From contig JAGBCX010000013.1 of assembly GCA_017937805.1 (NCBI GenBank), forward strand, positions 1 to 52,271: 52,271 nt of DNA, given 5' to 3'. This DNA comes from Alistipes sp. (GTDB lineage: Bacteria > Bacteroidota > Bacteroidia > Bacteroidales > Rikenellaceae). Numbering within the stretch: the first letter of the stretch is position 1; the number at the start of each line of letters is the position of its first letter. Made by a program: the position numbers and the translations under genes. The notes under the pieces are model-generated. The model was not told where the DNA came from. It saw nothing but the letters and a program-made list of their open reading frames with translations, and did not search any database. Positions 2,505 to 51,306 of the stretch are shown here, piece by piece.

Positions 2505-2695
2505 TAAAAACGGAAAACGGAAAGCGTAAAACGGAAAACTTTTAGTTTAGTGAGGAGTGAGGAGATAGTAGTGAGGAGTTGAAAACTTTCAGCGCACCCC
2601 ATAAAGCGACCAAAGGGAGCGCCCCCATAAAGGGCGGAACGCCCGCCCCTATAACCCCCATAAATGTTGCGCCTTGACCACGCTCAGAGTTCCGA
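2505..2695. repeat. Composite intergenic repeat, copy A
   Basis: This element fills the gap between the TonB receptor and ileS. On the plus strand the order is: heptad array (GGAAAAC, GGAAAGC, GTAAAAC, GGAAAAC, then TGAGGAG units) at about 2511-2586; a CAGCGCACC box near 2590; a middle with hairpins, including the perfect GGGCG-GAA-CGCCC at 2632-2644, separated by CATAAA/TATAA linkers; and the terminal box TTGCGCCTTGACCACGCT from 2667. Related copies lie at 16.9-17.3, 19.9-20.1 and 30.5-30.7 kb. No ORF is credible here. Confidence 0.75.
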
Positions 2696-2704
2696 TACCC
2701 CCCC

Positions 2705-5080
2705 CTAAAACTCTGCCGTTATGCCGAAGGTCGGCACGAGCGTTCCGTTTCGCTGTTTTATGCGTTTGAGGGCGTAGCGTTGCTCCTCAGTCGGGGCGGT
2801 AGGGTTTGCAATTACACCTGTGCTGAGAAGCGCATCGGGCAGGGTTATCTCGCTGAAAGTTATATTTTCGAGGTCGAGATATATGCCAAGACTCCACTTG
2901 CGGAACTCCCACACCTTATCCACGCGGATATCGAGTTGTATAAATGGTTTTAAGCGTCCCTCATTGTAGCGCGAATAGTCGAGTGCGGCACGCCCCGTAG
3001 CGTCCCAATAAGTTTTCAGAGCAGTCTGCTCCTCATCGTAAGGTGTATATGGCGCACCTCCGATTGCGCTCAACTTTGCACCTATGCTCCAACGGCGTGG
3101 CAGGTCGTATGTTCCGCTGACATTTGCCACCCAACGATTATCCCATGCCGAAGGGATATATGGTGCGTGGCGGTTGCTGCGATACTCGCTCCAATAGAGG
3201 GTGAATGCTCCGACAAGATTTATCTTGTTCGGTATCTGCCAGCGAGCCGACAACTCCACTCCGTAGGCGCGACCTTGTGCGGTCGATACCAATGCCTCAT
3301 TGCCCGTAACGCCATAGTCATTTCCTTTGCAGGTTAGCGGAACATCATCGGCAACAGAAAGAGGAACTTGTGAGTAGAGTTTGTAAAATCCCTCTAACGA
3401 TACCGCCAACCTGTCACGCAGGCGATATTCGCTACCCACTGCCGAGGAGAATACGCGCATATAGTCCAAATTCTTATTCACAAGTTGGTCCTCCTCGCTG
3501 CGATAGCCGAGTGAGGTAAGAGGTGGCAACTCATAATAAATACCCGTACTGCCACTTATGTAAAACCCTTTGCCAAGTGCGTATGATATTGAAGCGCGAG
3601 GGGATAGTTGTTGCCACAATTTCGCCATACGCGAGGAGTAGGTCGCACCATCGGCTCGCACTCCGAGCGATGCGGTAAGTCGCTCATTCAGCGAACGATA
3701 GTCTGCCGAGAAAAATAGCGCGTAACCGGCAAAAAGGAGTCGCGTATCGTAGTCGAAAAACGCCTGCTCGCCACTCGCAAGTCGCTGTTTTGTGGTTACG
3801 AGGAAGTGTCGCAACGACAACTCCGCACCCTCACGCAGTCGCCACCGTCCGAGTAGTGAGCGATTCTCAAATCGTGCGGTCGCTTTACCCTCGGTTGAGC
3901 GCAGACGAAGGCGCAGATTCTCCTCGCTCGACTCATCGTTGTCGATATATTTTCGGTTGCGGTTGGCAAGAAAACTATACCCGACAGAGAAGGTCTGAAT
4001 ATGTTTTCCGCCAAAGTGTTTCAGAGTTGCTCCGAGCGTGAAGGTCTCCTGCTCGATTTTGGGAATATAACTCAAAATATACTCGTTTTCACCCTCCTTA
4101 TCATCGAGGTTCAGGCGCAGGCGGTCGATACCCATAAGCCCCAGAAATGTTATCTCGTAACGCTCCGATGGGCGAATACGAATCTTCGCTTGCGCATCTA
4201 TGTAGTTCGGCAGAAATGGCAAACCAAGCAGTTTGAATAGCAGTTGCAAATAGGATTGTCGCATCGAAAAGAGGTAGGTTGCTTTCGAGTTGAAGTGTCC
4301 GCTACCGCTAAATGCCGCCTCCGATGCGCCAAGTGTTGCCTTGAAGCGTTGCTTGTCGGGGTTGCCCTCACGCAGGGCGATATCCATCACCGAACTCAGC
4401 GCATTGCCCTTGTCCACCGGGAAAGCACCCGTGTAGAACTTTACTTGGCGTATAAGGTCGGCATTGAGTATGCTGACAGGCCCTCCCGATGCACCCTGCG
4501 TGGCAAAGTGGTTGATGTTCGGAATCTCGATGCCGTCAATATAGAAGGTGTTTTCCGAAGGTCCGCCACCACGAACAATCAAGTCGTTGCGATAACCTAT
4601 CGGCGAAAAGGCGACACCGGGCAGGGTGCGGACAATTCGTGCCACATCACGATTGGCTCCCGGGCTGCGTTCCAACTCTCCGATACCTATGGCGCGAAGG
4701 CTTACAGGACTCTCGACATCACGAGCGTATGCCGAAGGGGCGACCGAAACGGCTTCGATTGTGGAGGCGGACTCCTCCAACTCAATCTCTATAAGGGGAG
4801 TAGCAGCCGAGATAATATATTCGGGTGTTACAACGGTGGTGTAGCCTATGCTCGAAGCCTCGAAACGTGCCACACCACCTGCCAAATTCTCGATTGTAAA
4901 GTAGCCGAGAGAGTCGGTTGCCGCACCTTTGGTGTAGTTGCCATCGACAACAACAGCGACATAGGGAACACCTTGTCGGGAGGTTGCCGAGATTACACGA
5001 CCACGAATATCAAATGCAGTCGCAATGGTAGGTGCAACAATTGTCGCTACAAGCAGAAATAGTCTAACCGATTTTGTCAT
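2705..5080 (-). CDS. TonB-dependent outer-membrane receptor
   Basis: A 791-residue outer-membrane receptor that would import an unknown ligand using TonB energy. A signal peptide covers about residues 1-22 (ending TAFD). A carboxypeptidase-regulatory-like beta-sandwich follows at about 23-105 (IRGRVISATSRQGVPYVAVV). The plug domain (about 115-230) contains the typical ALSSVMD-type segment and a VRGGGPSENTFYIDG motif. The rest is an alternating-strand barrel ending in Phe. It is shorter than SusC proteins (about 1000 residues) and no SusD lipoprotein lies nearby, so it is not a SusCD pair. It lies 59 nt downstream of the Ntn-hydrolase gene on the same strand and may be cotranscribed; no TAnnTTTG box is evident in that gap. 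The substrate cannot be read from the sequence. Confidence 0.9.
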   Translation of the reverse strand: MTKSVRLFLLVATIVAPTIATAFDIRGRVISATSRQGVPYVAVVVDGNYTKGAATDSLGYFTIENLAGGVARFEASSIGYTTVVTPEYIISAATPLIEIELEESASTIEAVSVAPSAYARDVESPVSLRAIGIGELERSPGANRDVARIVRTLPGVAFSPIGYRNDLIVRGGGPSENTFYIDGIEIPNINHFATQGASGGPVSILNADLIRQVKFYTGAFPVDKGNALSSVMDIALREGNPDKQRFKATLGASEAAFSGSGHFNSKATYLFSMRQSYLQLLFKLLGLPFLPNYIDAQAKIRIRPSERYEITFLGLMGIDRLRLNLDDKEGENEYILSYIPKIEQETFTLGATLKHFGGKHIQTFSVGYSFLANRNRKYIDNDESSEENLRLRLRSTEGKATARFENRSLLGRWRLREGAELSLRHFLVTTKQRLASGEQAFFDYDTRLLFAGYALFFSADYRSLNERLTASLGVRADGATYSSRMAKLWQQLSPRASISYALGKGFYISGSTGIYYELPPLTSLGYRSEEDQLVNKNLDYMRVFSSAVGSEYRLRDRLAVSLEGFYKLYSQVPLSVADDVPLTCKGNDYGVTGNEALVSTAQGRAYGVELSARWQIPNKINLVGAFTLYWSEYRSNRHAPYIPSAWDNRWVANVSGTYDLPRRWSIGAKLSAIGGAPYTPYDEEQTALKTYWDATGRAALDYSRYNEGRLKPFIQLDIRVDKVWEFRKWSLGIYLDLENITFSEITLPDALLSTGVIANPTAPTEEQRYALKRIKQRNGTLVPTFGITAEF

Positions 5081-5139
5081 AAAACAGTCGTTTTACGACA
5101 AAATCTTCCAAGAATTACGCCACTACTCTTATCTCTTTA

Positions 5140-6264
5140 TCAGAATTTTGACAACACCTTGCGAACTCGCATTTCGTGCTTGGTAAAAGTTTTGTCGATT
5201 TTGGCGTTGAAGGCGCGAATGTTTTTCGGCATCTCGCTCGGCATCTTAACCTTTGGTTGCTTTACTTCCAAAACTTGGCGTATCAACTCCTTGTTTAGAA
5301 GAGTCTTCTTGGCAATTTTGGTATAGGCTTTTGTTCGGAAATCGTTCGATAGGAGTCGCATTGCATCACCATGTACGCACTCCGGAATATTCTCCTTTGC
5401 CCTTACATAGACAGGTACAGCAAGGCTCGATACCGAGTGACCGTTCATAACGAGCATACGCGGATTTTTGCCGTCGCAGACTATTACGAATGAGCCAACT
5501 GTCGAGGCGCGAGGTACGGTGTGATTACTGCAGTAGTATCGCTTCTCTAAATCGAGAACATCGCCATACTTAATGCTATTATACGAGCGTGAGTAGCCGA
5601 TAAAGTCCTTAGGTGAGAACTCTCCGTGATGCTCCTTCATCTCCCTCATAATCAGGTCGTAACGACGCTTACTTGCACCTATTTTTGTTGGAACTCCGGC
5701 GTGCGAAAAGTTGGAACGCACATCGAAGCCATTGTTGCCACTCTCGCTAACGTCATAGCGACGATATCCCACATCCCAAACCTCGAAATAGGCGACTGCG
5801 CCCGTAGCATCTCCGACACCGAAGTTGGAGTGCGAGCGACGACTGCGCTTTGTGGTTTTGAGCAACTCCTCGAACTCGTCGATGGTTGCACACTCTCGCA
5901 AACCATTCCACATCGCTCCGCCTCGCATTCGACGAAGCGTGCACGCCTTATACTCCTCGGGTGTCGATTCGGGAAGGTTTTTTGTGGCGGTGCTCATAAT
6001 GCCTAACCCCATCTCGTTTACACCTGCATATACGCCTTTGGCGTAATTCTCATTATTAGGAACAACCGCTGTGTAGGAGTAGGTTCCGTCGGAGATATAC
6101 TCGATACGAGTGTTGGTGTACTTTGCATTATCACGATGTTTCCAAAGCAGTGGCACACCCTCGCTCGAGCGTGTGGGTGCGACTATCGCCGAGGTGCAGG
6201 CTAACGAGTCGAAGCTGAACGCGAAAAGTAGTGCAAAGAGTAGGAGTAATCGTTTCATAATCAT
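5140..6264 (-). CDS. Secreted Ntn-hydrolase, C45/choloylglycine-hydrolase-like
   Basis: A predicted exported amidase/acyltransferase of the N-terminal-nucleophile superfamily. Starting at the ATG at 6264 (or the second ATG at 6258), a leucine-rich signal peptide ends SLA and is followed by CTSAIV. Cleavage there would expose Cys as the new N-terminus, which is the catalytic nucleophile in the C45 and C59 families. A KHRD motif follows about 20 residues later, as in the family. The frame extends upstream to a TTG at 6285 directly behind the pepC stop, but the ATG starts give a proper signal peptide and are preferred. It lies 21 nt behind the secreted PepC gene, so the two probably share one transcript and act on periplasmic or extracellular amides or peptides. 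Bile-salt hydrolase activity is possible but cannot be claimed; a C69-type dipeptidase is the main alternative. Confidence 0.75.
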   Translation of the reverse strand: MIMKRLLLLFALLFAFSFDSLACTSAIVAPTRSSEGVPLLWKHRDNAKYTNTRIEYISDGTYSYTAVVPNNENYAKGVYAGVNEMGLGIMSTATKNLPESTPEEYKACTLRRMRGGAMWNGLRECATIDEFEELLKTTKRSRRSHSNFGVGDATGAVAYFEVWDVGYRRYDVSESGNNGFDVRSNFSHAGVPTKIGASKRRYDLIMREMKEHHGEFSPKDFIGYSRSYNSIKYGDVLDLEKRYYCSNHTVPRASTVGSFVIVCDGKNPRMLVMNGHSVSSLAVPVYVRAKENIPECVHGDAMRLLSNDFRTKAYTKIAKKTLLNKELIRQVLEVKQPKVKMPSEMPKNIRAFNAKIDKTFTKHEMRVRKVLSKF

Positions 6265-6285
6265 TGAGTTCGTGGCTTGTGTCAA

Positions 6286-7671
6286 CTACTCCTCAGGAGC
6301 AAACATAGGGTCCCAAGGCTCCAACATTATTGGTTTCTGCTTGAGCATATCGAGGATATCTTGCGGAACATATTTGCGCTCCACAACGAGTCGGAACATA
6401 TACTCACGGAACCAGTCGTCAGTCATAATGAGTTTTCCTTTGTCGCCGGGTTTTGCGCCCCAGCTATTCTCAATCAGCCACTTACGAGCCTTGCCCTCGT
6501 CGTCGATATCGACACCTATAAGTGTCATTGCGTGCGATGAGCTGCTGGCGTGTGTCTGAATCCGTTGGCTCTTGCTCATCGGGAATGATGTGCGGAAGAG
6601 CGATTCGTAGTCGTAGTTCTTCAAATCGAGTGTTCCCTTTTTGCGGTCGAAGTATTTGCCTACATCGCACGAGAAGTACATAGCTGTATTATCCTTGATT
6701 GAGGCGATGGCCATCTCGCGGATACGCTCGATAGGAAGGTTTATGTAGAGCCAATTATCGCCATTATAGACGTGGCGGTCGTACTCAATCTCGTATACCT
6801 CACCATACTCGCGCGAAGGGTCGTTCATAATCATTATGTAGTTGCCCTCCAAATCCTCTCCGATAAACTCCTCATAAAATGATTTTGGGGTATATTTTGC
6901 GGTTGAAACAACTTCGCCCTTGCGGTTGCGCATTGTCCATTCGAACTCGGTTGGAGGAACGCCCAAGCACTCTACCAAAATGCGATATATCTCGGTCAGT
7001 TGCTCGACCTTCAATGCCGAGGCGGCCTTGTCGCTTTTGGCAGCGCGAAGAGCCAACGCGTACTCGCGAAGTTTGAGCGAGAGAATGGTTCTCATATGAC
7101 GGGTGTTGTTGCTCTGATATGTTTCGGGCATGGCCTCCTTTGGCACAATACCGTACTTCATAATAAGGTTCGAAACGCCCGTGAATTGTCCTCCGTCACC
7201 GATAGGGTGGCGCAACAACCAATCGACCTTTCTATCCTCAAACGGCAACGAACGGGTGTCGATTATCGCCTGCAAAAAGAGATTTGATTTTTCGAGCAGG
7301 TCGTAGAACGAGCAGTAGTTCTGCGAGAACTCCATCTCGCTGAGGTTGTATCGGTCTATCATCTTGGCACGCAGCACGTTCAATCCAGTGAAGAGCCAAC
7401 ATCTGCCCGACGATTTTTGGTCGGTTATGCCCCTTGTTTTAACGCGGTGCGAGAAGTGATTGTCGCACTTTGCAAGGTTGTCGCCATTAATCGAAAGTGT
7501 GGCGATGGAGTTTGATGCCAAAGCGTTTTTAATGGCTCTTTGCTCGGGCGAATTGGTATATCCGCTTTTGATTTTTTCGAGCATCTTTGCATCTATTCCG
7601 CCATTTGCGGTTTGAGCTGTAGCACTGCATAGTGCGAGTGCTGCGAGTAGTGAAAGAAGGGTTTTCTTCAT
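6286..7671 (-). CDS. pepC: Secreted aminopeptidase C / bleomycin hydrolase-type cysteine peptidase (C1B)
   Basis: A papain-fold aminopeptidase that trims N-terminal residues from peptides. The catalytic triad is visible: Cys91 in QKSSGRCWLF, His380 in SHAMTLIG and Asn402 in ENSWG. Length (461) matches the family. Unlike the cytosolic Firmicutes enzymes it carries a signal peptide (MKKTLLSLLAALALC..., cleavage near residue 19-20), so it should act in the periplasm or outside the cell. It is first in a minus-strand unit with the Ntn-hydrolase and perhaps the TonB receptor, suggesting peptide scavenging. A TATCTTTG promoter box lies 37 nt upstream of the ATG. Confidence 0.93.
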   Translation of the reverse strand: MKKTLLSLLAALALCSATAQTANGGIDAKMLEKIKSGYTNSPEQRAIKNALASNSIATLSINGDNLAKCDNHFSHRVKTRGITDQKSSGRCWLFTGLNVLRAKMIDRYNLSEMEFSQNYCSFYDLLEKSNLFLQAIIDTRSLPFEDRKVDWLLRHPIGDGGQFTGVSNLIMKYGIVPKEAMPETYQSNNTRHMRTILSLKLREYALALRAAKSDKAASALKVEQLTEIYRILVECLGVPPTEFEWTMRNRKGEVVSTAKYTPKSFYEEFIGEDLEGNYIMIMNDPSREYGEVYEIEYDRHVYNGDNWLYINLPIERIREMAIASIKDNTAMYFSCDVGKYFDRKKGTLDLKNYDYESLFRTSFPMSKSQRIQTHASSSSHAMTLIGVDIDDEGKARKWLIENSWGAKPGDKGKLIMTDDWFREYMFRLVVERKYVPQDILDMLKQKPIMLEPWDPMFAPEE

Positions 7672-7707
7672 AGTCGTTATATCTTTTGTTGTATTGTTAA
7701 TTTTCTA

Positions 7708-7715
7708 CAAAGATA
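7708..7715 (-). promoter_or_regulatory. -7 promoter box for pepC unit
   Basis: The minus strand reads TATCTTTG, a full match to TAnnTTTG, 37 nt upstream of the pepC ATG. Confidence 0.65.
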
Positions 7716-7779
7716 GTGAATTATAGGAAAAAACAATAGTTTTTTTGGAGCCGATACCGACATTCGAAAGAAAAATCTT

Positions 7780-7787
7780 TATCTTTG
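7780..7787 (+). promoter_or_regulatory. -7 promoter box for lipoprotein-protease pair
   Basis: TATCTTTG lies 31 nt upstream of the ATG at 7818. It probably drives both the lipocalin-like lipoprotein and the S8 protease. Confidence 0.7.
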
Positions 7788-7817
7788 CAACGAGAAGAGT
7801 AGAAAAGAGTATTTAAA

Positions 7818-8315
7818 ATGATACAGAGAGTTAAAAAATACCTATTGCACTTAGTGTGTATTATGATTTTGGCGGTTGGCACAGTCGGTTGCGACAAGTC
7901 CGACTCGAGCGACAATAGCAATGAGAATATTGAAACCATAAATATTGATGTGCGATTGGCGGGGTGTTGGCACTTGGTCAGCTTCTGCGATGCATCTGTC
8001 GATGTTGATATATATATCAATTTCGACAAGTCAGGCCAATTTAAGATCTACCAGCGCACGGAAGGTCCTGCCTATACGGTGTTTGGTGGTACCTGCGCTA
8101 CTGACGAGGTGAATTTTGTTTTGTCGGGTGTCTATGATGATGGTACAGAGTGGAATACCGACTACAAATATACCGTAGATACCGAGGCGCAGGAGTTGAT
8201 ATTGGAGAGTGTGGCAACACCCGATGAAGTGTCGGTTTACAAGTCGTCGAGTGTGCCTGTGTCGGCAACTTTAAGTACCAGAAGTGCTTCGGCAGATGAT
8301 GTGAAACCGTTGTAA
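7818..8315 (+). CDS. Lipocalin-like lipoprotein
   Basis: A 165-residue putative lipoprotein. A hydrophobic signal ends in the lipobox VGTVGC, so Cys25 would be lipidated. A Ser/Asp/Asn-rich linker follows, then a small beta domain opening LAGCWHLVSFCD. This resembles lipocalin-like domains, which begin with a G-x-W strand and alternate short beta strands. No catalytic residues are apparent. The stop is only 13 nt before the S8 protease ATG, so the pair is almost certainly cotranscribed. A role as partner, inhibitor or substrate-binding factor for that protease is inference only. Confidence 0.7.
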   Translation: MIQRVKKYLLHLVCIMILAVGTVGCDKSDSSDNSNENIETINIDVRLAGCWHLVSFCDASVDVDIYINFDKSGQFKIYQRTEGPAYTVFGGTCATDEVNFVLSGVYDDGTEWNTDYKYTVDTEAQELILESVATPDEVSVYKSSSVPVSATLSTRSASADDVKPL

Positions 8316-8328
8316 AAGAGTTAGAGAG

Positions 8329-10621: not shown

Positions 10622-10654
10622 GAATTTTGCATTTTGCATTTTGCATTCTGAATT
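10622..10654 (+). repeat. Heptad array, YTGMATT class
   Basis: Three TTGCATT units and one CTGAATT unit in exact 7-nt phase lie just upstream of the lipA promoter box. The same class recurs at 11621-11660. The rest of the 307-nt gap between the protease and lipA holds the structured element and a small inverted repeat (aaaaaaggtcga/ttgacctttttt) around 10538-10570. Confidence 0.75.
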
Positions 10655-10662
10655 TAATTTTG

Positions 10663-10670
10663 TAACTTTG
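10663..10670 (+). promoter_or_regulatory. -7 promoter box for lipA
   Basis: TAACTTTG matches TAnnTTTG and lies 30 nt upstream of the preferred ATG at 10700. Confidence 0.65.
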
Positions 10671-11584: not shown

Positions 11585-11620
11585 CCGATTGCTTACATCT
11601 CGATTTTAGATACGGATTGT

Positions 11621-11660
11621 CTGAATTCTGAATTTTGCATTTTGAATTCTGCATTTTGAT
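11621..11660 (+). repeat. Heptad array, YTGMATT class
   Basis: Units in perfect 7-nt phase are CTGAATT, CTGAATT, TTGCATT, TTGAATT, CTGCATT and a partial TTGAT, ending 5 nt before the lipB ATG. It is the same family as 10622-10654. Confidence 0.8.
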
Positions 11661-16921: not shown

Positions 16922-16967
16922 GTTTTGGGTTGAGGGGACTCTGAGCGTGGTCAAGGCGCAAGCGATG

Positions 16968-17003
16968 ATAGGGGTTATAGGGGTTATAGGGATAATAGGG
17001 TGC
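16968..17003 (+). repeat. ATAGGGNNN nonamer array with a G-quadruplex pattern
   Basis: Four consecutive 9-nt units (ATAGGGGTT, ATAGGGGTT, ATAGGGATA, ATAGGGTGC) give four G-runs of 3-4 separated by 5-6 nt. This meets the simple intramolecular quadruplex rule of four G3+ runs with loops of 1-7 nt. Similar C-run arrays lie at 19886-19915 and 19996-20025. Confidence 0.75.
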
Positions 17004-17186
17004 GCTTTAAGTTTTTCCTTGTCTGAACTCTGAGCGTGGTCAAGGCGCAAGCGATTATAGGATTGAATAGGACTGAATAGGATTCGCTCCCGTTGGTCGC
17101 TTTATAGGAGTGCGCTGAAAGAGCTGAGAAATATTTTTCGCTCCTCACTCCTCACTCCTCACTACTCACTACTCACTAAACTAAAA

Positions 17187-17292: not shown

Positions 17293-17349
17293 CAAACGAA
17301 AAACTTTAAAGTTTTCCGTTTTCCGCTTTCCGTTTTCCGTTTCTTTTAT

Positions 17350-17357
17350 TATCTTTG
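17350..17357 (+). promoter_or_regulatory. -7 promoter box almost touching the surE start
   Basis: TATCTTTG ends 6 nt before the only plausible surE ATG (17364). If used, the mRNA would be leaderless or nearly so. Confidence 0.5.
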
Positions 17358-19761: not shown

Positions 19762-19867
19762 GAACGGAAAACGGAAGCGACGAACGAAGCAATGGAGAGA
19801 GGCTGCTTGCAGACTATCTCTTGCAAGGAGGAGCAAAAGCCTGCGAAGCAGGATTAAAGCGGAAAAC
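19762..19867 (-). repeat. 106-bp inverted repeat, right arm
   Basis: Reverse-complement partner of 17187-17292. It starts at the base after the response-regulator stop codon. Its hairpin here is CCTGC-GAA-GCAGG; the stem is conserved and the loop differs from the left arm. Confidence 0.85.
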
Positions 19868-20070
19868 TAAAAAAGCAACAGCGCACCCTATTATCCCTAT
19901 CACCCCCATAACCCCTAAAAGGTTTGCGCCGTGACAAGGGCAGGAGTTCGGAAAACGGAAAACGGAAAGCGGAAAACTAAAAAAACAACAGCGCACCCTA
20001 TTACCCCTATCACCCCTATAACCCCTAAAAGGTTTGCGCCGTGACAAGGGCAGGGGTTCGGAAAACGATA
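19868..20070. repeat. Composite intergenic repeat, copy C (two tandem units)
   Basis: Two nearly identical units of about 110 nt lie between the response regulator and gdhA. Each reads: CTAAAAAA, CAGCGCACCC, a C-run array (CCC at 19886-19915; CCC at 19996-20025), CTAAAAGGTTTGCGCCGTGA, CAAGGGCAGG, GTTCGGAAAAC. The second unit is preceded by four phased heptads (GGAAAAC, GGAAAAC, GGAAAGC, GGAAAAC at 19950-19977). The terminal box is a variant of that in copies A, B and D. Both C-run arrays fit the quadruplex pattern on the minus strand. No gene is visible in this 362-nt gap; a TAACTTTA box at 20102-20109 may drive gdhA. Confidence 0.75.
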
Positions 20071-30509: not shown

Positions 30510-30727
30510 GGAAAACGGAAAACTGAAAACGGAGAACTGAGAGCTGAGAGCTGAGAACTGAGAACGGAAAACTGATAACGAAAAAAACTTTCAGCGCTTC
30601 CTATAAAGCACCACAGGTGCGCCTCCTATCAAGGGCACAGCCCGCCTCTTATCAAGCAGTCGCAGACTGCGTCTCATATTCTGTTGCGCCTTGACCACTC
30701 TCAGAGTTCAGACAAGGAAAAACTTAG
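30510..30727. repeat. Composite intergenic repeat, copy D, with heptads and variable hairpin cassettes
   Basis: This lies in the 529-nt gap between nrdJ and tRNA-Leu(CAG), which has no gene. Ten phased heptads at 30510-30579 (consensus KGARARC, for example GGAAAAC, TGAGAGC, TGAGAAC) are followed by a TTTCAGCGC box. Three hairpin cassettes come next: GCACC-ACA-GGTGC (30608-30620), GGGC-ACA-GCCC (30633-30643) and GCAGTC-GCA-GACTGC (30656-30670). They are separated by constant linkers of the form GCCTC + YTATCAA. The terminal box GTTGCGCCTTGACCACTC and AGACAAGGAAAAACTTA end the element; that tail is shared with copy B. Confidence 0.75.
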
Positions 30728-42147: not shown

Positions 42148-42158
42148 GCAACTTGACT

Positions 42159-43430
42159 ATGATAAAGTATCTGTTTGAATTTATATGTTGTAGTGCCGTT
42201 CTATATGCGCTATACAAACTGCTGATTGAGGGTAGGGTTACTCATTTGTCAGCTCGTCTATATATTATATCGGCATCATTGCTTTCGTTGTTGATTCCTA
42301 TGTTGGAGTTGCCGATATATCCGGCTGAAACCCTCTATTACACTCTACCTATTGTGTGGTCAGAGGGTGCAGTTGCCGATATAAATGGTTACGTGGAAAC
42401 CAAATCGACAATAGATTGGTATCTCGTGTTTAGTTGCATAGTAGCGACTATTTACGGAGTGATAGTAGTGCTTAATTTTGTGCGCTTTGGAGTAAGACTC
42501 TGCCAAGTGTCGAAGTTGCGCAAGAGGACAAAATTATCCTTCTACGAGGCATATACATTGGCAGTAAGTCGTGAGATAAAGGAGCCATTTTCGTTTTGGC
42601 GCACAATATATATTAACGATAAATTTGAATCTTCTGCATTGGAGATGGTTGTCGCCCATGAGTACAGCCATATCCAACACCATCATACTGTTGAACGACT
42701 ATTTATGGAGGTGTTGCGTTGTGTTTGTTGGTTTAATCCTTTTATTTGGTTGCTGGCAAACGCTATTATAGAGGTGCAGGAGTGGGAAGCCGATAAAGAT
42801 GTCATAGATAAGGGATACGATGTTGTGGAGTATCGACTACTTGTTTTCCAACAACTCTACGGTTATTATCCGGAGGTAACCTGTGGGTTGAAGAGTCAAA
42901 CTTCTAAAAAAAGATTTCTTATGATGACAGATTTTAAGCGGAGAAAATTCTCTCCATTGCGCTTATGCGCAACGATTCCTGTAGTTGCAGGTATGATTTT
43001 GGCTTTTGGAGCAGTTCAAGCCGAAACTCGGACAGTTGAGGTGCAGAAGGTTGATGTCGCATCTCAACCAGAGAGTACAGAGACTGCAGCCTTGCTCCAA
43101 AAGTTCAGCGACTACTACAAACGAAATATCCGTTATCCGGCAGATGCGGAGGCGAAGGGTATTGATGGTAGAGTAGTTGTGCAGTGTTCGGTTAATCTTG
43201 TAGATGGCTCGGCAGAGGTGATTCGTGTTTTCAAATCTCCCGCCTCACAACTTACCGCAGAGGTTGAGCGAGTTATTAAGGCTCGTAAGTGGGAGACGAT
43301 ACAAAGTGTTGCAGAACGCCCAAATCCAAAGGTTATCCTTACATTCGACTTTATGATTTATGGTAAAACAGATGTGTCGAAATATAAAGAGGCCGTTAAT
43401 GGAATAGTTGTAATGACATATCCGAAATGA
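42159..43430 (+). CDS. BlaR1/MecR1-like M56 membrane metallopeptidase with C-terminal TonB domain
   Basis: A 423-residue inner-membrane antirepressor. Hydrophobic segments near residues 4-24, 32-52, 86-108 and 188-203 surround the zinc motif HEYSH (167-171), with the third ligand Glu210 in EVQEWEAD. A further membrane segment lies near 268-288. The C-terminal part (about 325-412, RYPADAEAKGIDGRVVVQC...) is a TonB-like domain instead of the penicillin-binding sensor of classical BlaR1, as is common in Bacteroidota. The frame reaches a TTG at 42153, but the ATG at 42159 is preferred. It would cleave the cognate BlaI-type repressor after sensing an unknown envelope signal. Confidence 0.92.
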   Translation: MIKYLFEFICCSAVLYALYKLLIEGRVTHLSARLYIISASLLSLLIPMLELPIYPAETLYYTLPIVWSEGAVADINGYVETKSTIDWYLVFSCIVATIYGVIVVLNFVRFGVRLCQVSKLRKRTKLSFYEAYTLAVSREIKEPFSFWRTIYINDKFESSALEMVVAHEYSHIQHHHTVERLFMEVLRCVCWFNPFIWLLANAIIEVQEWEADKDVIDKGYDVVEYRLLVFQQLYGYYPEVTCGLKSQTSKKRFLMMTDFKRRKFSPLRLCATIPVVAGMILAFGAVQAETRTVEVQKVDVASQPESTETAALLQKFSDYYKRNIRYPADAEAKGIDGRVVVQCSVNLVDGSAEVIRVFKSPASQLTAEVERVIKARKWETIQSVAERPNPKVILTFDFMIYGKTDVSKYKEAVNGIVVMTYPK

Positions 43431-43478
43431 GGATTATTTTGATTTTGAGGTGAAACAAAAAGCCAATGGCTAAAAGCA

Positions 43479-43504
43479 GAAAAGACGAGAATTCTCGTCT
43501 TTTC
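43479..43504. terminator. Bidirectional palindromic terminator
   Basis: A perfect 26-bp palindrome with half-site GAAAAGACGAGAA, followed by AGTTTTTAG on the plus strand. It separates the blaR1-like gene from the convergent S41 peptidase gene. Confidence 0.75.
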
Positions 43505-43512
43505 AGTTTTTA

Positions 43513-43547
43513 GTTTTCCGCTTTCCGTTTTCAGTTCTCCGTTTTAT
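43513..43547. repeat. Heptad array overlapping the S41 peptidase stop codon
   Basis: Phased units GTTTTCC, GCTTTCC, GTTTTCA, GTTCTCC, GTTTTAT (KGARAAC class on the minus strand). The peptidase stop codon (43531-43533) and its last residues lie inside the array. Confidence 0.75.
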
Positions 43548-45159: not shown

Positions 45160-45162
45160 TTT

Positions 45163-45257
45163 AATTAAGAATTAAGAATTGAGAATTGAGAATTGAGAAT
45201 TGAAAATTGAGAATTGTTTTTAACTCCTCACTCCTCACTACTATCTCCTCACTATTT
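45163..45257. repeat. Double heptad array between S41 peptidase and DUF3078-like gene
   Basis: AATTAAG, AATTAAG, three AATTGAG, AATTGAA, AATTGAG and a partial unit are in strict 7-nt phase (45163-45216). ACTCCTC, ACTCCTC, ACTACTA, TCTCCTC and ACTATTT follow (45223-45257). The second array runs into the DUF3078-like gene's stop codon. Confidence 0.85.
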
Positions 45258-46424
45258 ATTCTTAAAGGTATACGCAAGACCTACGCCAAGAACGGTTTGA
45301 GTTTGAACTTTCTCATTCTGTGCTTTGTTGTAGTAGAGCTGGAAGTAGAACTGTGTCGAGAAGTACTTTGTAGCCTTGATGTCGATGGTATTCTCCCAAC
45401 GAACGGTAGGAACGATGCTCTCGTATTTGAGAGGCTGATTAGCATTCTCGGGATTGCTATTCCACTTTTTACTATCATTCTGTTGAGCAATCTGGTTAAT
45501 CCAACCATAGAATGAGTAGAGCGTCGTACGATAGCGGAATACTCCCTTTTTGCCGAAGGTCTTGTCGAAATCAACCTGAATAGATGAACCGCCTTCGTAA
45601 CGCTGATTCTTATTTCTCAGTGTCAAACCATACACATAAGGGGTGTTGAGATCCTTCAACGAGAGAGTGTTGACATCTGTGTCGGCTCCAAACTTCTCTT
45701 TATAGTAGAAATCTCTAACATTCTCGCTCGTAACATATATAGCGTTCATAGAGAGTGGTGCGATGTTGATTTTGATAGGGAACTTCTTATTAGGGCAAAC
45801 ATAAGTTACACCTACCGAAGCAATGAGGTAAGCAGGTGCAAATCCTGCGCTGGTGAGCTTTCTTGTCTCTTTGTCAGTGCTGTTCCAACCATTAGCAAAT
45901 TGCGAACGCAGCGAGAGCGAACCTCCTACGTTCCAACTATTCGAAAGGACATAGGCAGGAGAGGTCTGGATAAACCACTCGTCCTGACTCTTCGACATTG
46001 TACTTGGCTCTACCTCTTCGGTCTTTGGATCATCTTCCACGAAGTTGTAGGCATAGCCCAACTTTCCGGTAACCTTTGTGCCGATGGTGAACTTACCTTT
46101 AGTGTAACTGTGGGTAAAGAGAACGTTGCCAATACCTGTGATGGAGTTGTTGTTTCCGTTTACTTTGAGCCAATGCTCGTTGAAGTGTGCGAGTGAACCA
46201 TTGAGCGTTGCATTGAACTCGATGGTGTTGCGCTCCTTGCGAGCTGCAGCCTTCTCGGCTTTGATTTGAGCCTCGCTTTTGAATGCCGGAGCCTCTTTCT
46301 CGGTCTTTACCTCGTTTGCGAATGTAACTTGCTCCTGTGGGGTTGCCGATTCAACGGTTGCTTGTGCGTGAGCCATGCCTGCGCACGCGATAAGTGCTGC
46401 AAAAAGTGTAAAAATTCTCTTCAT
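45252..46424 (-). CDS. Predicted outer-membrane beta-barrel protein, DUF3078-like
   Basis: A 390-residue exported protein from the ATG at 46424 (MKRIFTLFAALIACAGMAHA signal peptide, cleaved before QATV). The frame is open further upstream, but that part crosses the promoter. A charged linker (about 30-70, rich in Glu, Lys, Ala) precedes alternating beta strands to the C-terminus, ending YTFKNK. The layout and the NGSLAHFNEHWLKVNGNNNS segment resemble DUF3078 proteins of Bacteroidota. No enzymatic motif is seen. It is divergent from fhs. Confidence 0.7.
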   Translation of the reverse strand: MKRIFTLFAALIACAGMAHAQATVESATPQEQVTFANEVKTEKEAPAFKSEAQIKAEKAAARKERNTIEFNATLNGSLAHFNEHWLKVNGNNNSITGIGNVLFTHSYTKGKFTIGTKVTGKLGYAYNFVEDDPKTEEVEPSTMSKSQDEWFIQTSPAYVLSNSWNVGGSLSLRSQFANGWNSTDKETRKLTSAGFAPAYLIASVGVTYVCPNKKFPIKINIAPLSMNAIYVTSENVRDFYYKEKFGADTDVNTLSLKDLNTPYVYGLTLRNKNQRYEGGSSIQVDFDKTFGKKGVFRYRTTLYSFYGWINQIAQQNDSKKWNSNPENANQPLKYESIVPTVRWENTIDIKATKYFSTQFYFQLYYNKAQNEKVQTQTVLGVGLAYTFKNK

Positions 46425-46461
46425 ATCGTTATATTTATTGTTTGTTGTCACTTTGAACATA

Positions 46462-46469
46462 CAAATATA
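46462..46469 (-). promoter_or_regulatory. -7 promoter box for the DUF3078-like gene
   Basis: The minus strand reads TATATTTG, 37 nt upstream of the ATG at 46424. Confidence 0.6.
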
Positions 46470-46481
46470 GAATAAATTTTG

Positions 46482-46489
46482 TATATTTG
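46482..46489 (+). promoter_or_regulatory. -7 promoter box for fhs
   Basis: TATATTTG lies 53 nt upstream of the fhs ATG, back to back with the box of the divergent gene. Confidence 0.6.
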
Positions 46490-46542
46490 TAGAGTGTTTA
46501 AGCAAAAAAGTCGAGTAAATTAAAGATATAAATATAAACGAT

Positions 46543-48213
46543 ATGAAATCTGATATTGAAATTGCACGTTCAGTGAAGTTGAAGAATATTCGCGAAATAG
46601 CTGCCGAGGTGGGATTTCCCGAAGAAGAGGTATTTAACTATGGTAAGTATATTGCGAAAATTCCGTATAAACTCATTGATAGTAAGAAGGTTAAAAAGAG
46701 TCACCTTATTCTTGTAACGGCTATTACTGCGACCAAGGCAGGCGTAGGAAAAACGACTGTAAGCATTGGTTTGGGCATGGGATTGAATCATATAGGCAAA
46801 CGTGCCATGATTGCCTTGCGCGAACCTTCGTTGGGCCCATGCTTCGGCATGAAGGGTGGCGCAACGGGTGGTGGCTATACGCAAGTATTGCCTTCGGAGG
46901 ATATCAACCTCCACTTTACGGGTGATTTTCACGCGGTAACTTCGGCAAATAACCTTATTGCTGCGTTGCTCGACAACTACCTCTACCACAATCGCTCAAA
47001 GCAGGTGGGTTTGAAGAAGGTTATGTGGCGACGAGTTCTCGATATGAATGACCGCTCTTTGCGTCATATTGTATCGGGACTTGGAGGCTCAACAAACGGA
47101 ATACCTACCGAAACGGGCTTCGATATCACTCCGGCATCGGAGATTATGGCCATTTTGTGCTTGGCTCGCAATATTGACGACTTGTACGCACGCATTGGTC
47201 GCATAGTACTTGGTGTGCGCTACGATGATACTCCGTTTACGGTGGAGGATTTGGGCGTTACGGGTGCGGTTGTGGCTCTGTTGAAAGATGCTATAAATCC
47301 AAATCTCGTACAGACAACCGAGCACAATCCTGTGATTATACATGGAGGACCTTTTGCAAATATCGCTCACGGTTGCAACTCGGTGATTGCAACCCGTATG
47401 GCAATGTCGTGGTCGGATTATACCGTTACCGAGGCGGGCTTCGGTGCAGACCTTGGTGCAGAGAAGTTCTTTGATATCAAGTGCCGTCAAGCAGGGTTGA
47501 AGCCTGACCTAACGGTTTTGGTAGCCTCGACTTTGGCGTTGAAGATGCACGGTGGAGTACCTGAAACGGAGATTAAACTGCCAAATGCCGAGGGCTTGAA
47601 GCGAGGTTTTGCAAATCTCGACCGCCATATAGCCAATCTGCAGAAATTCGGTCAGACTGTATTGGTATGCTTCAATCGCTTCGCCAGCGATACCGATGAG
47701 GAGATAGCAATGGTTATGGAGCATTGTGCCGAGCAGGGTGTTCGTTGTGTAATCAACAACGCCTATATGGAGGGTAGCGCAGGTGCTGCCGAGTTGGCTG
47801 AGGCCGCAGTGGAACTTATCGAAAATCAGCCATCGGCACCACTCAACTATGCGTACGACCTTGAAGATAGCATTATGACCAAGATTGAGAAGGTTGCCAA
47901 GAAGATTTACGGTGCCGGCTCGGTGGAGTTCAGCCTGAAGGCTCAGAAGGAGATTGCTTTGATAGAGAAGTGGGGTATGGGCAACCTTCCTGTATGTATT
48001 GCCAAGACTCAATACTCTTTTAGTGGCGATGCCAAGCAGTATGGTAGCGTTGAGGGCTTTACCCTTAAAATCAAGGATATAGAACTCAATGCTGGTAGTG
48101 GTTTTGTCGTAGTTTTGGCGGGAGATATTATGCGTATGCCGGGATTGAGCAAGACACCTCAGGCGGTAAATATCCGCCTTGCGGAAGACGGAAATGTTGA
48201 GGGCCTAGTGTAA
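46543..48213 (+). CDS. fhs: Formate--tetrahydrofolate ligase
   Basis: Makes 10-formyl-tetrahydrofolate from formate, ATP and THF, feeding purine and one-carbon metabolism. The 556 residues match the family. The ATP-binding loop TKAGVGKTT is at 64-72. Next comes the family signature [19 protein letters not shown] and [23 protein letters not shown]. It stands alone, with no folD or purine gene adjacent. Confidence 0.96.
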
Positions 48214-48225
48214 AAGGTGCAATAG

Positions 48226-48321
48226 ATAGGGAATGTAAGGAGAATAGGGAATATAGGGAGGATAGGGATTGAGCCCTTAAATTCATTAAACTCCCTAATT
48301 TCTCTAAACTCACTAAAAAGC
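48226..48321. repeat. Two nonamer arrays between fhs and nfo
   Basis: Five 9-nt units of the ATAGGGNNN type (ATAGGGAAT, GTAAGGAGA, ATAGGGAAT, ATAGGGAGG, ATAGGGATT; 48226-48270) are followed by five YTAAAYTCN-type units (TTAAATTCA, TTAAACTCC, CTAATTTCT, CTAAACTCA, CTAAAAAGC; 48277-48321). The first class matches the array at 16968. Confidence 0.75.
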
Positions 48322-48343
48322 TAACGGCTAAAAGCGAAAAATT

Positions 48344-49189
48344 ATGAAATACTTTGGCGCACATGTAAGCGCATCGGGAGGAGTTGAGAATGCTCCGCAT
48401 AATGCCAAGGCGATAGGTGCTACCGCCTTTGCCCTGTTTACCAAAAATCAGCGTCAGTGGCTTGCTCCTGCTCTAACGGAAGAGCAGTGCGAGCGATTTA
48501 AGGCGGCATGTGCGGAGTGTGGATATACGGCAAAGCAGATTTTGCCACACGACAGCTACCTTATCAACCTCGGGCACCCTGAACGCGAGGGTTTGGAGAA
48601 GTCGCGCGAGGCATTCTTTGGCGAGATGGCTCGATGCGAAGCACTCGGCTTGGATAGATTAAACTTTCACCCGGGTAGCCACCTCGGAAAAATCACCTCG
48701 TTGATGTCGCTCGACCGCATTGCCGAGTCGATAAATATGGCTCTTGACCGCACGCAGGGCGTTACTGCCGTAATAGAAAATACGGCAGGACAGGGCTCGA
48801 ACCTCGGTTTTGCATGGGAGCATATTGCGCATATTATAGATAAGGTGGAGGATAAGTCGCGCGTGGGCTTCTGTATCGACACTTGTCATACTTTTGCTGC
48901 GGGTTACGACCTTTCGAGCGTGGAGGCTTGTGAAAAGACTTTTGCGCAGGTGGACAGCATCATTGGTATGAAATATCTGCGTGGTATGCACCTAAACGAT
49001 GCCTTGAAACCACTTGGCTCGCATGTTGATAGGCACGCTTCGTTGGGCGAGGGCTTTATTGGTTGGGATTGCTTCCGTTTTATTGCGCAGTCGCCACTCT
49101 TCGAGGAGATGCCGCTTACACTCGAAACTCCGAACGAGGAGATTTGGGCACAGGAAATAGAAAAACTCAAATCGTTCGCAAACGAATAG
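48344..49189 (+). CDS. nfo: Endonuclease IV (AP endonuclease family 2)
   Basis: Cleaves DNA at abasic sites in base-excision repair; a TIM-barrel enzyme with three zinc ions. The 281 residues match the family. Metal ligands are visible in [60 protein letters not shown] and LETPNE. It lies 51 nt upstream of tnaA and may be cotranscribed with it; no terminator is seen between them. Confidence 0.96.
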
Positions 49190-49203
49190 ACCTAAAACCA
49201 AAT

Positions 49204-49237
49204 AATTCTTAATTTTTAATTCTCAATTCTTAATTTA
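49204..49237. repeat. Heptad array just upstream of tnaA
   Basis: AATTCTT, AATTTTT, AATTCTC, AATTCTT in 7-nt phase, ending 3 nt before the tnaA ATG. It occupies most of the nfo-tnaA gap, so a leader-peptide attenuator is not possible there. Confidence 0.8.
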
Positions 49238-49240
49238 AGT

Positions 49241-50614
49241 ATGGAACTTCCTTTTGCAGAATCTTGGCGAATCAAGATGGTTGAGCCAATCAAGAAGAGT
49301 ACTCGCGAGGAGCGCGAGCAGTGGATGAAAGAGGCAAACTACAACCTCTTCCAACTCCGTTCGGAGCAGGTTTACATCGACTGTTTGACCGACTCGGGAA
49401 CAGGTGCAATGAGCGACCGTCAGTGGGCTGCCGTAATGATGGGTGATGAGAGTTATGCAGGCTCGTCGTCATTCTTCCACTTGAAAGAAACTATTAACAA
49501 AATCACCGGTTTTGAGTATGTAATTCCTACGCACCAAGGCCGTGCTGCCGAGAATGTGCTGTTCTCGCATCTCGTAAAGGCAGGCTCGATTGTCCCGGGC
49601 AACTCGCACTTCGATACAACCAAAGGACATATCGAGAGCCGTAAGGCAACAGCGCTCGACTGTACTATCGACGAGGCGAAGGATACACAACTCGAAATAC
49701 CTTTCAAGGGCAATGTAGATCCTAAGAAGTTGGAGAAGGCGTTGGCAGAGCATCACGAGAACGTTCCGTTTATCATTGTAACCATCACTAACAACACCGC
49801 AGGTGGTCAGCCCGTTTCGATGCAGAACTTGCGCGAGGTGCGTGCTATTGCCGACAAGTATGGCAAGCGCGTAGTGCTCGATTCGGCTCGCTTTGCCGAG
49901 AATGCCTACTTTATCAAGACTCGCGAGGAGGGTTATGCCGATAAGACTATCAAGGAGATTGCCTTGGAGATGTTCTCGTTGGCTGACGGTATGACAATGT
50001 CGGCAAAGAAGGACGGTATCGTAAATATGGGTGGCTTTATCGCAACTCGCCACGAGGATTGGTACGAGGGAGCAAAGCGTTTCTGTATTCCATTCGAGGG
50101 CTACCTCACATATGGCGGTATGAATGGTCGCGATATGGAGGCGTTGGCAGTTGGTCTTGACGAGAATACCGAGTTCGACAACCTCGAAACCCGTATTCAT
50201 CAGGTTGAGTTCCTCGCAGGTTTGCTTGATGAGTACGGAATCCCATATCAGCGCCCTGTGGGTGGTCACGCCATCTTTGTAGATGCATCGAAGGTACTTA
50301 CTAAGGTGCCAAAGGAGGAGTTCCCTGCACAGACTCTCGCTATCGAGTTGTACTTGGAGGCGGGTGTTCGTGGCTGCGAGATTGGATATATCCTTGCTGA
50401 CCGCGACCCTGTAACACGTGAAAATCGTTTTGGAGGTCTTGATCTGCTTCGTCTTTGCGTTGCTCGCCGTGTCTATACCGACAACCACATGAAGGTTATT
50501 GCAGCTGCTTTGAAGAATGTATTTGACCGCCGTGACGAGATTACTCGCGGTGTTGAAATCGTTTGGGAGGCGGAGTTGATGCGTCACTTCACAGTGAAGC
50601 TGAACAAACTATAA
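49241..50614 (+). CDS. tnaA: Tryptophanase
   Basis: A PLP-dependent lyase that splits tryptophan into indole, pyruvate and ammonia. The 457 residues match the family. The PLP-binding Lys256/257 lies in MTMSAKKDGIVNMGG. Other family blocks are THQGRAAEN, TITNNTAGGQPVSMQNL and LDSARFAENAYFI. There is no tnaC-like leader ORF and no tnaB transporter next to it, unlike the E. coli operon. Strong codon bias suggests high expression. A clear intrinsic terminator follows. Tyrosine phenol-lyase is a close relative but the overall sequence fits tryptophanase better. Confidence 0.93.
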   Translation: MELPFAESWRIKMVEPIKKSTREEREQWMKEANYNLFQLRSEQVYIDCLTDSGTGAMSDRQWAAVMMGDESYAGSSSFFHLKETINKITGFEYVIPTHQGRAAENVLFSHLVKAGSIVPGNSHFDTTKGHIESRKATALDCTIDEAKDTQLEIPFKGNVDPKKLEKALAEHHENVPFIIVTITNNTAGGQPVSMQNLREVRAIADKYGKRVVLDSARFAENAYFIKTREEGYADKTIKEIALEMFSLADGMTMSAKKDGIVNMGGFIATRHEDWYEGAKRFCIPFEGYLTYGGMNGRDMEALAVGLDENTEFDNLETRIHQVEFLAGLLDEYGIPYQRPVGGHAIFVDASKVLTKVPKEEFPAQTLAIELYLEAGVRGCEIGYILADRDPVTRENRFGGLDLLRLCVARRVYTDNHMKVIAAALKNVFDRRDEITRGVEIVWEAELMRHFTVKLNKL

Positions 50615-50659
50615 TCCCTCTCTCTATTGGAGATAGAGGAGGCTTCCTCTTTGTGAAAA

Positions 50660-50700
50660 AGCCCCAAAAGTTTGGAAAGAACTTTTGGGGCTATTTTTTA
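50660..50700 (+). terminator. Intrinsic terminator of tnaA
   Basis: A perfect 13-bp stem AGCCCCAAAAGTT with a 7-nt loop, followed by ATTTTTTTA. Confidence 0.9.
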
Positions 50701-50719
50701 AAATCAACTCAATTCAACT

Positions 50720-51265
50720 CTATTTTGTCTTATAGGAACAACTGAATTGTCCTTTGGCGAGTTTCAGAATCTTACTTTTCAGTAGGTTGCGGCGCAATGG
50801 CGAGAGGTGGTCGGTGAAGACCTTACCTTCGAGGTGGTCGTACTCGTGCTGAATTACGCGAGCAGGGTAGCCCGAAAACTCCTCATCGTGCTCTACAAAA
50901 TTCTCATCGAGGTATCGCATACGAATCGAAACGGGGCGCACTACGTCCTCGTGAATGCCCGGAATCGAAAGACAACCCTCCTCAAAGTGTGATGTTTTCT
51001 CCGAACGCTCGTAAATCTCGGCATTTACAAACACCTTGCGGAAGTTTGCCAACTCGGGATTCTCCTCTGCCCAAGGGGTGCAATCGACGATAAATAGGCG
51101 GATATTCTTGCCAATCTGCGGTGCAGCCAAACCTACACCACTCGCCTCGCCAAGCGTAATCCACATATCATCAACTAACTTCTTGAAGTCGGGATACGAA
51201 GCATCAATATTCTCGCTAACCTTTCTCAGAGTTGCGTTTCCATAAATTACAATAGGATATATCAT
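50720..51265 (-). CDS. def: Peptide deformylase
   Basis: Removes the formyl group from the N-terminal Met of new proteins. The 181 residues match the family. The three motifs are intact: GVGLAAPQIG (Gln50), EEGCLSIPG (Cys98) and QHEYDHLEG (His140, Glu141, His144); Cys98 and the two His bind the metal. It is third in the glyS-ruvX-def unit, with a heptad array filling the 40-nt gap from ruvX. Confidence 0.97.
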   Translation of the reverse strand: MIYPIVIYGNATLRKVSENIDASYPDFKKLVDDMWITLGEASGVGLAAPQIGKNIRLFIVDCTPWAEENPELANFRKVFVNAEIYERSEKTSHFEEGCLSIPGIHEDVVRPVSIRMRYLDENFVEHDEEFSGYPARVIQHEYDHLEGKVFTDHLSPLRRNLLKSKILKLAKGQFSCSYKTK

Positions 51266-51274
51266 TGTAATATT

Positions 51275-51306
51275 TAATTCTTAATTCTCAATTCTCAATT
51301 CTTAAT
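51275..51306. repeat. Heptad array between ruvX and def
   Basis: AATTCTT, AATTCTC, AATTCTC, AATTCTT in 7-nt phase on the plus strand. Its edge overlaps the ruvX stop codon, so TAA comes from a repeat unit. Confidence 0.8.

Follow-up and report, generated by a model that had tools for sequence, protein, structure and literature searches.

The window analyzed here is a stretch of 52,271 nucleotides from Alistipes sp. (Rikenellaceae; contig JAGBCX010000013.1 of assembly GCA_017937805.1), and its intergenic regions carry short tandem arrays with a strict 7-nt period, referred to below as heptad arrays. The source metagenome-assembled genome (MAG; G000) comprises 1.84 Mb in 89 contigs, is 85% complete and contributes the window as contig C88. 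For one window protein, the nearest named relatives were Rikenellaceae and Alistipes MAGs, several of them from herbivore guts. Tandem Repeats Finder (TRF), run with a minimum score of 30, returned 13 rows of period 7 in the window. These covered every array named in the initial annotation and no further ones, and the array placed there at 2511-2586 resolved into two (2507-2539 and 2549-2579). The exact 7-nt phase that had been reported was confirmed, as 12 of the 13 rows had 0% insertions or deletions and the row at 30511 had 1%. The arrays and the promoter boxes beside them are listed in Table 1; class letters stand for the repeated words, which are given below.

Table 1. Heptad arrays and adjacent promoter boxes in the window.
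Feature	Position	Strand	Basis
-7 box TACCTTTG beside the 2507 array	2493..2500	-	sequence, box scan
Class B heptad array (GYTTYCC on minus strand), 4.7 units	2507..2539	-	TRF
Class E array (ACTMCTC on minus strand), 4.4 units	2549..2579	-	TRF
Class C array (MATTYTG), 4.6 units, upstream of radical SAM open reading frame (ORF; 10685)	10624..10655	+	TRF, Pfam
-7 box TAACTTTG, 7 nt past class C array	10663..10670	+	box scan
Class C array, 5.7 units, stops 6 nt before ATG of lipoate ligase ORF (11666)	11620..11659	+	TRF, Pfam
Class E array (ACTMCTC), 5.3 units	17141..17177	+	TRF
Class B array, exact 32-mer present at 11 sites of sampled G000; upstream of surE (ORF from 17355)	17311..17342	+	TRF
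-7 box TATCTTTG, 7 nt past class B array	17350..17357	+	box scan
Class B array, 4.1 units, within 110-bp tandem duplication (19856-20067)	19949..19977	-	TRF
Long mixed class B array (GAAAACT/GAGAACT/GGAAAAC), 10.7 units	30511..30584	-	TRF
Mixed class B array (TTTTCAG/GTTTTCC), 6.6 units, overlaps end of S41 peptidase ORF	43500..43545	+	TRF, Pfam
Class A array (AATTRAG on +), 7.7 units; C58 orthologue about 4.7 units; absent in L001	45163..45216	-	TRF
Class E array, 4.4 units, within 87-bp stretch absent from L001	45223..45253	+	TRF
Class A array (AATTYTY), 4.7 units, 5 nt before ATG of beta-eliminating lyase (49241); L001 and C58 have other heptads	49203..49235	+	TRF
Class A array (AATTYTY), 4.9 units, between ruvX and deformylase start	51274..51307	+	TRF

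The survey was extended to 810,441 bases of the source assembly and to 713 kb of a related species (G150, MAG SIG180, which recurs in the genome set as G867). Sampled stretches carry L numbers, followed after a colon by the position of a locus; L001 comes from G150. They were largely selected for pattern matches to class A or class B, other periods not being used for selection, and rates per Mb are therefore biased upward and the comparison between periods is perhaps biased as well. For periods 5 to 12, the source-genome sample gave 0, 2, 188, 4, 45, 13, 4 and 17 TRF rows. A tally over 447 kb of the same genome had 99 rows of period 7 and 24 of period 9, and the G150 sample had 164 rows of period 7, with 1, 7 and 45 rows of periods 6, 8 and 9. 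Period 9 was the second commonest tandem period in both species (45 rows in each sample). The unselected window, again at a TRF score of 30, held 13 rows of period 7, 10 of period 9, 5 of period 10 and 1 of period 8. The enrichment over periods 5 to 12, which the initial annotation had set beforehand as its test, was thus strong (188 rows against at most 45), and the arrays are not a product of chance: a single local shuffle of the source-genome sample left no period-7 row. Period-7 rows overlap in part; merging of loci with period 7, 14 or 21 left 192 in G000 and 186 in G150.

Contig C58 of G000 (stretch L096) was found to be syntenic with 44-51 kb of the window at only 77-90% identity, so the MAG seems to contain DNA of a second related species. 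C58 was included in the period tallies (447 kb and 810 kb), the first orthologue alignments and the whole-genome pattern counts (29-mer, class A, class B and AATTGAY). It was left out of the class, flank, ORF, length, unit-likeness, -7 box and orthologue-class counts, for which 186 of the 192 G000 loci were kept. ORFs were crude greedy calls of at least 100 aa, from which start codons were taken, and the pyrimidine-rich strand of an array is called its Y strand.

The initial annotation distinguished four word classes, which is correct for the window and too few for the genome, where at least eight were found. On the Y strand the words read AATTYTY (A), GYTTYCC (B), MATTYTG (C), AATTRTC (D), ACTMCTC (E), ATCTCCT (F), GTCTYTC (G) and YATTRGC (J), with a few more; words of G000 beyond the four of the window were AATTGAY, CTCCTAT, TCTCGTC, TTAGCCA and AACTTTT. 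The 186 loci of G000 were divided into 55 of class A, 53 of B, 17 of C, 13 of D, 12 of E, 9 of G, 7 of F and 20 others, and those of G150 into 48 of class B, 44 of J, 35 of A, 25 of D, 12 of E, 7 of C and 15 others. The repertoires of the two related species therefore differ.

Taken over all words, array length peaked at about 4.5 heptads, with 93 of 182 rows in G000 measuring 31-34 nt. The same range was occupied by 92 of 164 rows in G150, 35 of 63 in G137, 14 of 36 in G080 (a second Rikenellaceae genus) and 10 of 15 in Parabacteroides massiliensis strain SN4. For the lengths and phases of single classes, each array was extended by its own class word. Class B arrays of G000 (n = 60) then measured 31-33 nt in 37 cases, 26-29 nt in 3, 36-39 nt in 3 and 34 nt in 1, with 8 shorter and 8 longer; in G150 (n = 55), 32 measured 31-33 nt, 4 were about one unit less, 5 about one unit more and the rest shorter or longer. 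Of the 60 class B arrays of G000 and the 55 of G150, 51 and 48 started in phase 0 (the G of GYTTYCC), and 56 and 54 ended in phase 3-5 (GTT, GTTT or GTTTT). AATT stood at the start of 14 of 15 class D arrays in G000 and of 22 of 26 in G150, and the phase was less tidy in classes A, E and J. Many class D arrays (e.g., L094:10304 and L116:1669) are preceded on the Y strand by a TACCTTT-like flank; as this flank is common to many arrays, the dispersed unit of class D may exceed the heptads.

Exact copies were found at many sites. The 29-mer GTTTTCCGTTTTCCGCTTTCCGTTTTCCG occurred at 21 sites of G000, and at 47 with at most one mismatch, while its reversed control gave 0. The flanks of the class B 32-mer vary by site and have only preceding A-rich DNA and a following -7 box in common. 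Within class B the unit GCTTTCC favored the third place, and 0 of 60 order shuffles reached the observed same-place likeness in G000 or in G150. When only strict heptads were counted, adjacent class B units were less alike than units of different arrays both in G000 (0.76 against 0.82, with 1 of 500 shuffles as low) and in G137 (0.74 against 0.83); adjacent units were not clearly more alike in classes B and D of G150 or in classes J and C of G000 and G150.

These properties bear on slippage, one of the causes offered in the initial annotation. In its neutral form, the arrays would be long simple sequence repeats (LSSRs) that grow from chance seeds because 7 nt is the step at which slippage of the replicative polymerase is easiest, selection doing nothing but clearing genes. 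Slippage explains the period and some unit changes, and the strict class A units of G150 and G137 were indeed alike within an array, as were those of classes A, C, D and J when looser words were counted. It does not easily produce the sharp 4.5-unit peak of class B with few arrays at 3.5 and 5.5 units, the fixed end phases, the identical internal unit order at unlinked sites or the class B neighbors of G000 that are less alike than random. As the origin of the arrays as a whole we consider it somewhat unlikely.

An even distribution into genes, the counter-case named in the initial annotation, was not found: 147 of the 186 G000 loci lay outside ORFs and 39 inside, although ORFs make up 87.5% of the sequence. 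Many arrays had a constant position relative to TAnnTTTG, which we take to be the -7 box consensus of Bacteroidota promoters. Read on the Y strand, this motif followed the array at a distance of 3-10 nt at 39 of 186 loci in G000, against 2.3 expected from the intergenic density, and the three other arrangements of box and array were found 3, 4 and 1 times. The corresponding counts in G150 were 29 of 186 against 2.4 expected, and 1, 1 and 1. Seen from the genes that have TAnnTTTG within 150 nt upstream, an array ended just before the box in 31 of 181 (G000) and 21 of 174 (G150). In sampled G000, the box followed 10 of the 11 exact copies of the class B 32-mer, in 8 of these cases after 7 nt. 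Boxes pointing away from the array were also present at 4 of 10 arrays in G167 (Prevotellaceae) and at 7 of 36 in G080. In G150, an ORF start lay within 0-20 nt after 18 of the 44 class J arrays, whose purine-rich strand was then the sense strand, and fewer arrays of other classes were so placed. A preference for one replication strand was considered and rejected, as the Y strand was not clearly biased between the G-rich and C-rich strands in G000 (class A 27 to 22, B 17 to 27) or in G150 (A 13 to 9, B 15 to 12, J 7 to 15).

The fixed distance and orientation to the -7 box are a further difficulty for slippage. They argue for the selected spacing that the initial annotation had also offered, for a minority of the arrays. 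The same position could be explained by an oligomeric protein that binds one heptad per protomer, with the 4.5 heptads (about three turns) corresponding to a set number of protomers and the classes to different specificities. The site upstream of the -7 box, the orientation and the set length would all fit such a protein, and omega-type ribbon-helix-helix proteins bind runs of 7-bp heptads in promoters, the omega heptad being WATCACW. The arrays resemble the omega operators of pSM19035 in being runs of 7-bp units in promoters and differ from them in sequence, because WATCACW runs are practically absent: no run of two or more copies was found in the G000 sample, and one in the G150 sample. Most arrays lie away from any -7 box, and since different classes occupy one promoter slot in two species, the arrays are unlike a regulon. 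A binding protein as the reason for the arrays appears unlikely to us.

Array content was found to differ between closely related genomes. The gap between the S41 peptidase and DUF3078 genes of the window contains two arrays in 87 bp (45163-45253) that are cleanly absent in L001; as C58 has a shorter class A array there, gain and loss at this gap are indistinguishable. The array at 45163 differs in extent from its C58 counterpart by three heptads, as slippage would allow. At 49203, ahead of the lyase gene, the window, L001 and C58 all have an array, with changed heptads and a nearly constant phase. Among the 48 of 186 G000 loci that were comparable in G150, 14 had the same class, 16 another class, 4 weak heptads and 14 none, and among the 55 of 186 G150 loci comparable in G000 these numbers were 15, 13, 2 and 25, where "another class" means an array anywhere in the matched interval of 34-523 nt. 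The strand orientation was the same in 10 of the 16 and 9 of the 13 other-class pairs, and some heptad likeness could be seen at 3 of 14 and 3 of 25 loci scored without an array. At two loci the exchange was clear (L081:4814 with L112, and L158:10254 with L130:8606): the promoter kept its -7 box and its slot in both species, one of which had class A there and the other class B.

In local alignments, which had no gaps in any of the 14 same-class pairs, these were 95% identical over the array, against a mean of 81% for all matched DNA of G000 and G150, the exact 12-base anchors used for site choice favoring conserved places. The array extent was unchanged in 9 of 14 same-class orthologues, which speaks against slippage; for L081:17085, L145:12760 and L160:1934, extents were taken from the pairwise locus alignments, since the later comparison matched another copy. 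In the other five (L086:14458, L092:7461, L150:7699, L150:10422 and L158:6274) the extent differed by 4-8 nt, or about one heptad, as slippage would have it.

The period-7 trait is patchy, with some words shared by distant families; besides G000 and G150, an excess of period 7 was seen in Parabacteroides, one Prevotellaceae genome and a second Rikenellaceae genus. Class A (AATTRAG x3) was found in 19 of 150 family genomes and 30 of 395 phylum genomes and was rich only in a few genomes of genera g1 and g20. Overlapping class A matches numbered 56 in G000 and 14 in the next highest of the 395 phylum genomes, a scan for which the reversed control carries little information because it also matches pure AATTAAG arrays. 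Class B was present in 11 of 121 genomes of the genus, including G000 and G150, and in 4 of 30 chosen genomes. A 4.5-unit AATTGAY array, with two mismatches allowed, was detected in 32 of 295 Bacteroidia genomes and 19 of 156 genera, against 1 genome for the reversed control. The close relative G151 had one array in 211 kb. For periods 5 to 12, P. massiliensis gave 0, 0, 15, 0, 0, 1, 1 and 2 rows, and the Prevotellaceae genomes G167 and G160 gave 0, 0, 10, 4, 0, 0, 1 and 5, and 0, 0, 14, 3, 6, 4, 15 and 7, respectively, period 11 being as frequent as period 7 in G160. Period-7 arrays with other words were also seen on Clostridia, Oscillospiraceae and Clostridiales contigs (L037:542, L061:150, L061:4110 and L075:2467); in 847 kb from other phyla, period 7 gave 10 rows, period 8 none, period 6 one and period 9 twelve.

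Templated addition by a reverse transcriptase, the remaining cause suggested in the initial annotation, was not borne out. Among 15 genomes, RVT_1 was not found in G000 (85% complete), G150, G137 or G080, although a divergent enzyme could escape the model. The most specific form of this idea is that tandem-repeat cDNA made by the telomerase-like reverse transcriptase DRT10 is inserted into the genome. The available excerpts of PMC12632851 describe DRT10 as making tandem-repeat DNA with various unit lengths, 9 nt in Eco3, and do not describe insertion of its products. The rank of period 9 in G000 and the RVT_1 matches in the array-bearing genomes G138 and G076, with one internal stop each, would be consistent with DRT10; the distribution of RVT_1 speaks against it, as the domain occurs in 6 of the 15 genomes and these include G151 with its single array. 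We regard this origin as hardly credible.

The suggestion of the initial annotation that different words of one period share a cause is strongly supported, and its interpretation as a whole is supported in part. We tentatively favor, a little short of even confidence, the reading that the arrays are dispersed intergenic cassettes of set length and fast turnover, some of which serve as upstream promoter parts or leaders. This reading builds on the length, the phase of the tidy classes, the dispersion, the position and the between-species turnover as observed. The set length of about 4.5 heptads, or 31-34 bp, is near three helical turns. New cassette copies, of the same or another class, would be added to intergenic DNA or replace it between closely related species, and the cassettes may be copied from site to site, for instance by template switching at short A/T-rich flanks. 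A subset would form the upstream part of Bacteroidota promoters, at about -12 to -45 with the Y strand as the non-template strand and the -7 box mostly 4-8 nt past the array. Array and box would then act together as a promoter, and the promoter slot would probably be kept by selection. The TTAGCCA class, rich in G150, would often lie directly before start codons. Units are occasionally gained or lost by 7-nt slippage.

Several observations weigh against cassettes. No copying machinery was found. The turnover was seen in the comparable loci (48 and 55 of 186), among which insertion and loss are indistinguishable and "another class" is broadly defined, and the extent changes in 5 of 14 orthologues count on the same side. 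The majority of G000 arrays have no -7 box, and boxes near array ends were found at 0 of 15 loci in P. massiliensis, 0 of 14 in G160 and 0 of 13 other Bacteroidota loci. In G160 the length peak at 31-34 nt is weak (1 of 14), and this range holds 4 of 10 rows in G167, 5 of 13 in other Bacteroidota loci and 2 of 10 in other phyla; longer arrays are present as well (21 G000 rows of at least 42 nt). Adjacent strict class A units of G150 were more alike than units of different arrays (0.87 against 0.76, with 0 of 500 shuffles as high). Likeness within arrays was also found in strict class A of G137 (13 of 500), with a tendency in class C of G137 (46 of 500) and in class A of G000 (72 of 500); the class A likeness in G150 and G137 and the class C tendency in G137 fit local duplication. 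With one mismatch per heptad allowed, units of classes A, C and D in both species and of class J in G150 exceeded all or almost all shuffles in their likeness within arrays. This looser count mixes classes, because the words of A, C and D lie within one mismatch of each other, and we read the likeness as such mixing, though it is to be weighed against the cassettes.

A wider form of the cassette reading, which we think improbable, is that an unrecognized system across the Bacteroidales makes or maintains 32-bp, 4.5-heptad cassettes of any word, which the bacteria use as exchangeable upstream promoter segments and leaders. The length ruler would then lie in the machinery, either an oligomeric heptad-binding protein or a copying enzyme, and the four-unit mode of Xanthomonas repeats described below would reflect the same ruler.

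Heptanucleotide repeats as such are known, and short tandemly repeated repetitive (STRR) sequences is a name used for them. According to Mrazek (2007), as cited in the introduction of PMC4679880, heptanucleotides are the commonest long-repeat category in most bacterial genomes rich in long repeats, the proposed cause being slippage over a distance equal to the polymerase contact; the preference for seven-base units in bacteria has been an open question since at least that year. The present arrays, tandem beyond chance and mostly intergenic, resemble heptanucleotide LSSRs and STRRs, among them three heptanucleotides of Calothrix, in their 7-nt unit, intergenic position, patchy taxa and several words per genome (excerpts of PMC4679880 and PMC4692102). 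They are unlike them in the set 4.5 units, the fixed end phase of the tidy classes, the slot at the -7 box and the between-species exchange of classes. The TAACTGA repeats of marine Beggiatoaceae are intergenic, mostly just before start codons, and occur in five Bacteroidetes including Paludibacter (excerpts of PMC4679880); class J may be comparable in position, whereas the arrays here have many degenerate words and 4.5 units. TAACTGA was not among the period-7 consensus words of G000 or the leading words, no search aimed at it having been made.

The GGGAATC repeats of Xanthomonas, as given in excerpts of PMC4692102, form 186 and 183 arrays in two genomes, 89-93% of them intergenic and mostly of four units, a length that the authors discussed with quadruplexes. 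They lie mostly between the same genes in the two species, differ there in length and sequence, and include inverted pairs. Same-class inverted pairs were also seen in P. massiliensis and G150, at L171:13339-13427, L174:1524-1610 and L126:11123-11241, with 25, 25 and 53 nt between the arrays. Unlike the present arrays, GGGAATC and the GGGGAYT repeats of Nostoc are G-rich, quadruplex-capable and few between divergent genes (excerpts of PMC4692102). A quadruplex cannot set the length here, because main words without GGG still peak at 4.5 units.

A search of the open-licence literature for heptad arrays of Rikenellaceae, Parabacteroides or Prevotellaceae gave no paper, and six array sequences searched as text matched only two papers, both on animals as judged by title. 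The set length, the promoter slot and the class exchange were not found described and look new. As 4.5 units are common to different words and the ends and promoter place are fixed, something other than slippage is suggested to set many arrays here. Should the arrays at promoters be functional, exchangeable cassettes would be rewriting the promoters of common uncultured gut bacteria, and promoter prediction in this group should include the arrays. In P. massiliensis SN4, a named strain with the AATTGAC class, the length question can be put to the test, although no -7 box lies beside any of the 15 arrays sampled there.

The scanned neighbors of the window arrays belong to ordinary gene families, 2 of 20 ORFs being without a Pfam match. 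An Rfam search of the window at the gathering threshold detected two tRNA genes, in agreement with ARAGORN, and no known RNA family at the arrays. A stretch of 1.6 kb between the isomerase and lyase genes (L001:8264-9852) is also present on C58 and absent from the window. A composite dispersed element was observed as well, which consists of GAACTC..GTCAAGGCGCA, a run of 9-nt units like ATAGGGGTT, and GTGCGCT, often directly followed by heptad arrays. Copies lie in the window at 2592-2690, 16935-17010, 17024-17115 and 19856-20067, and elsewhere at, for example, L081:15649 and L142:3538. A few of its cores resemble chance matches in genes; of the 23 cores in G000, 15 had a heptad array inside the 150 nt that follow or no more than 20 nt away from them, as did 13 of the 20 cores in G150.

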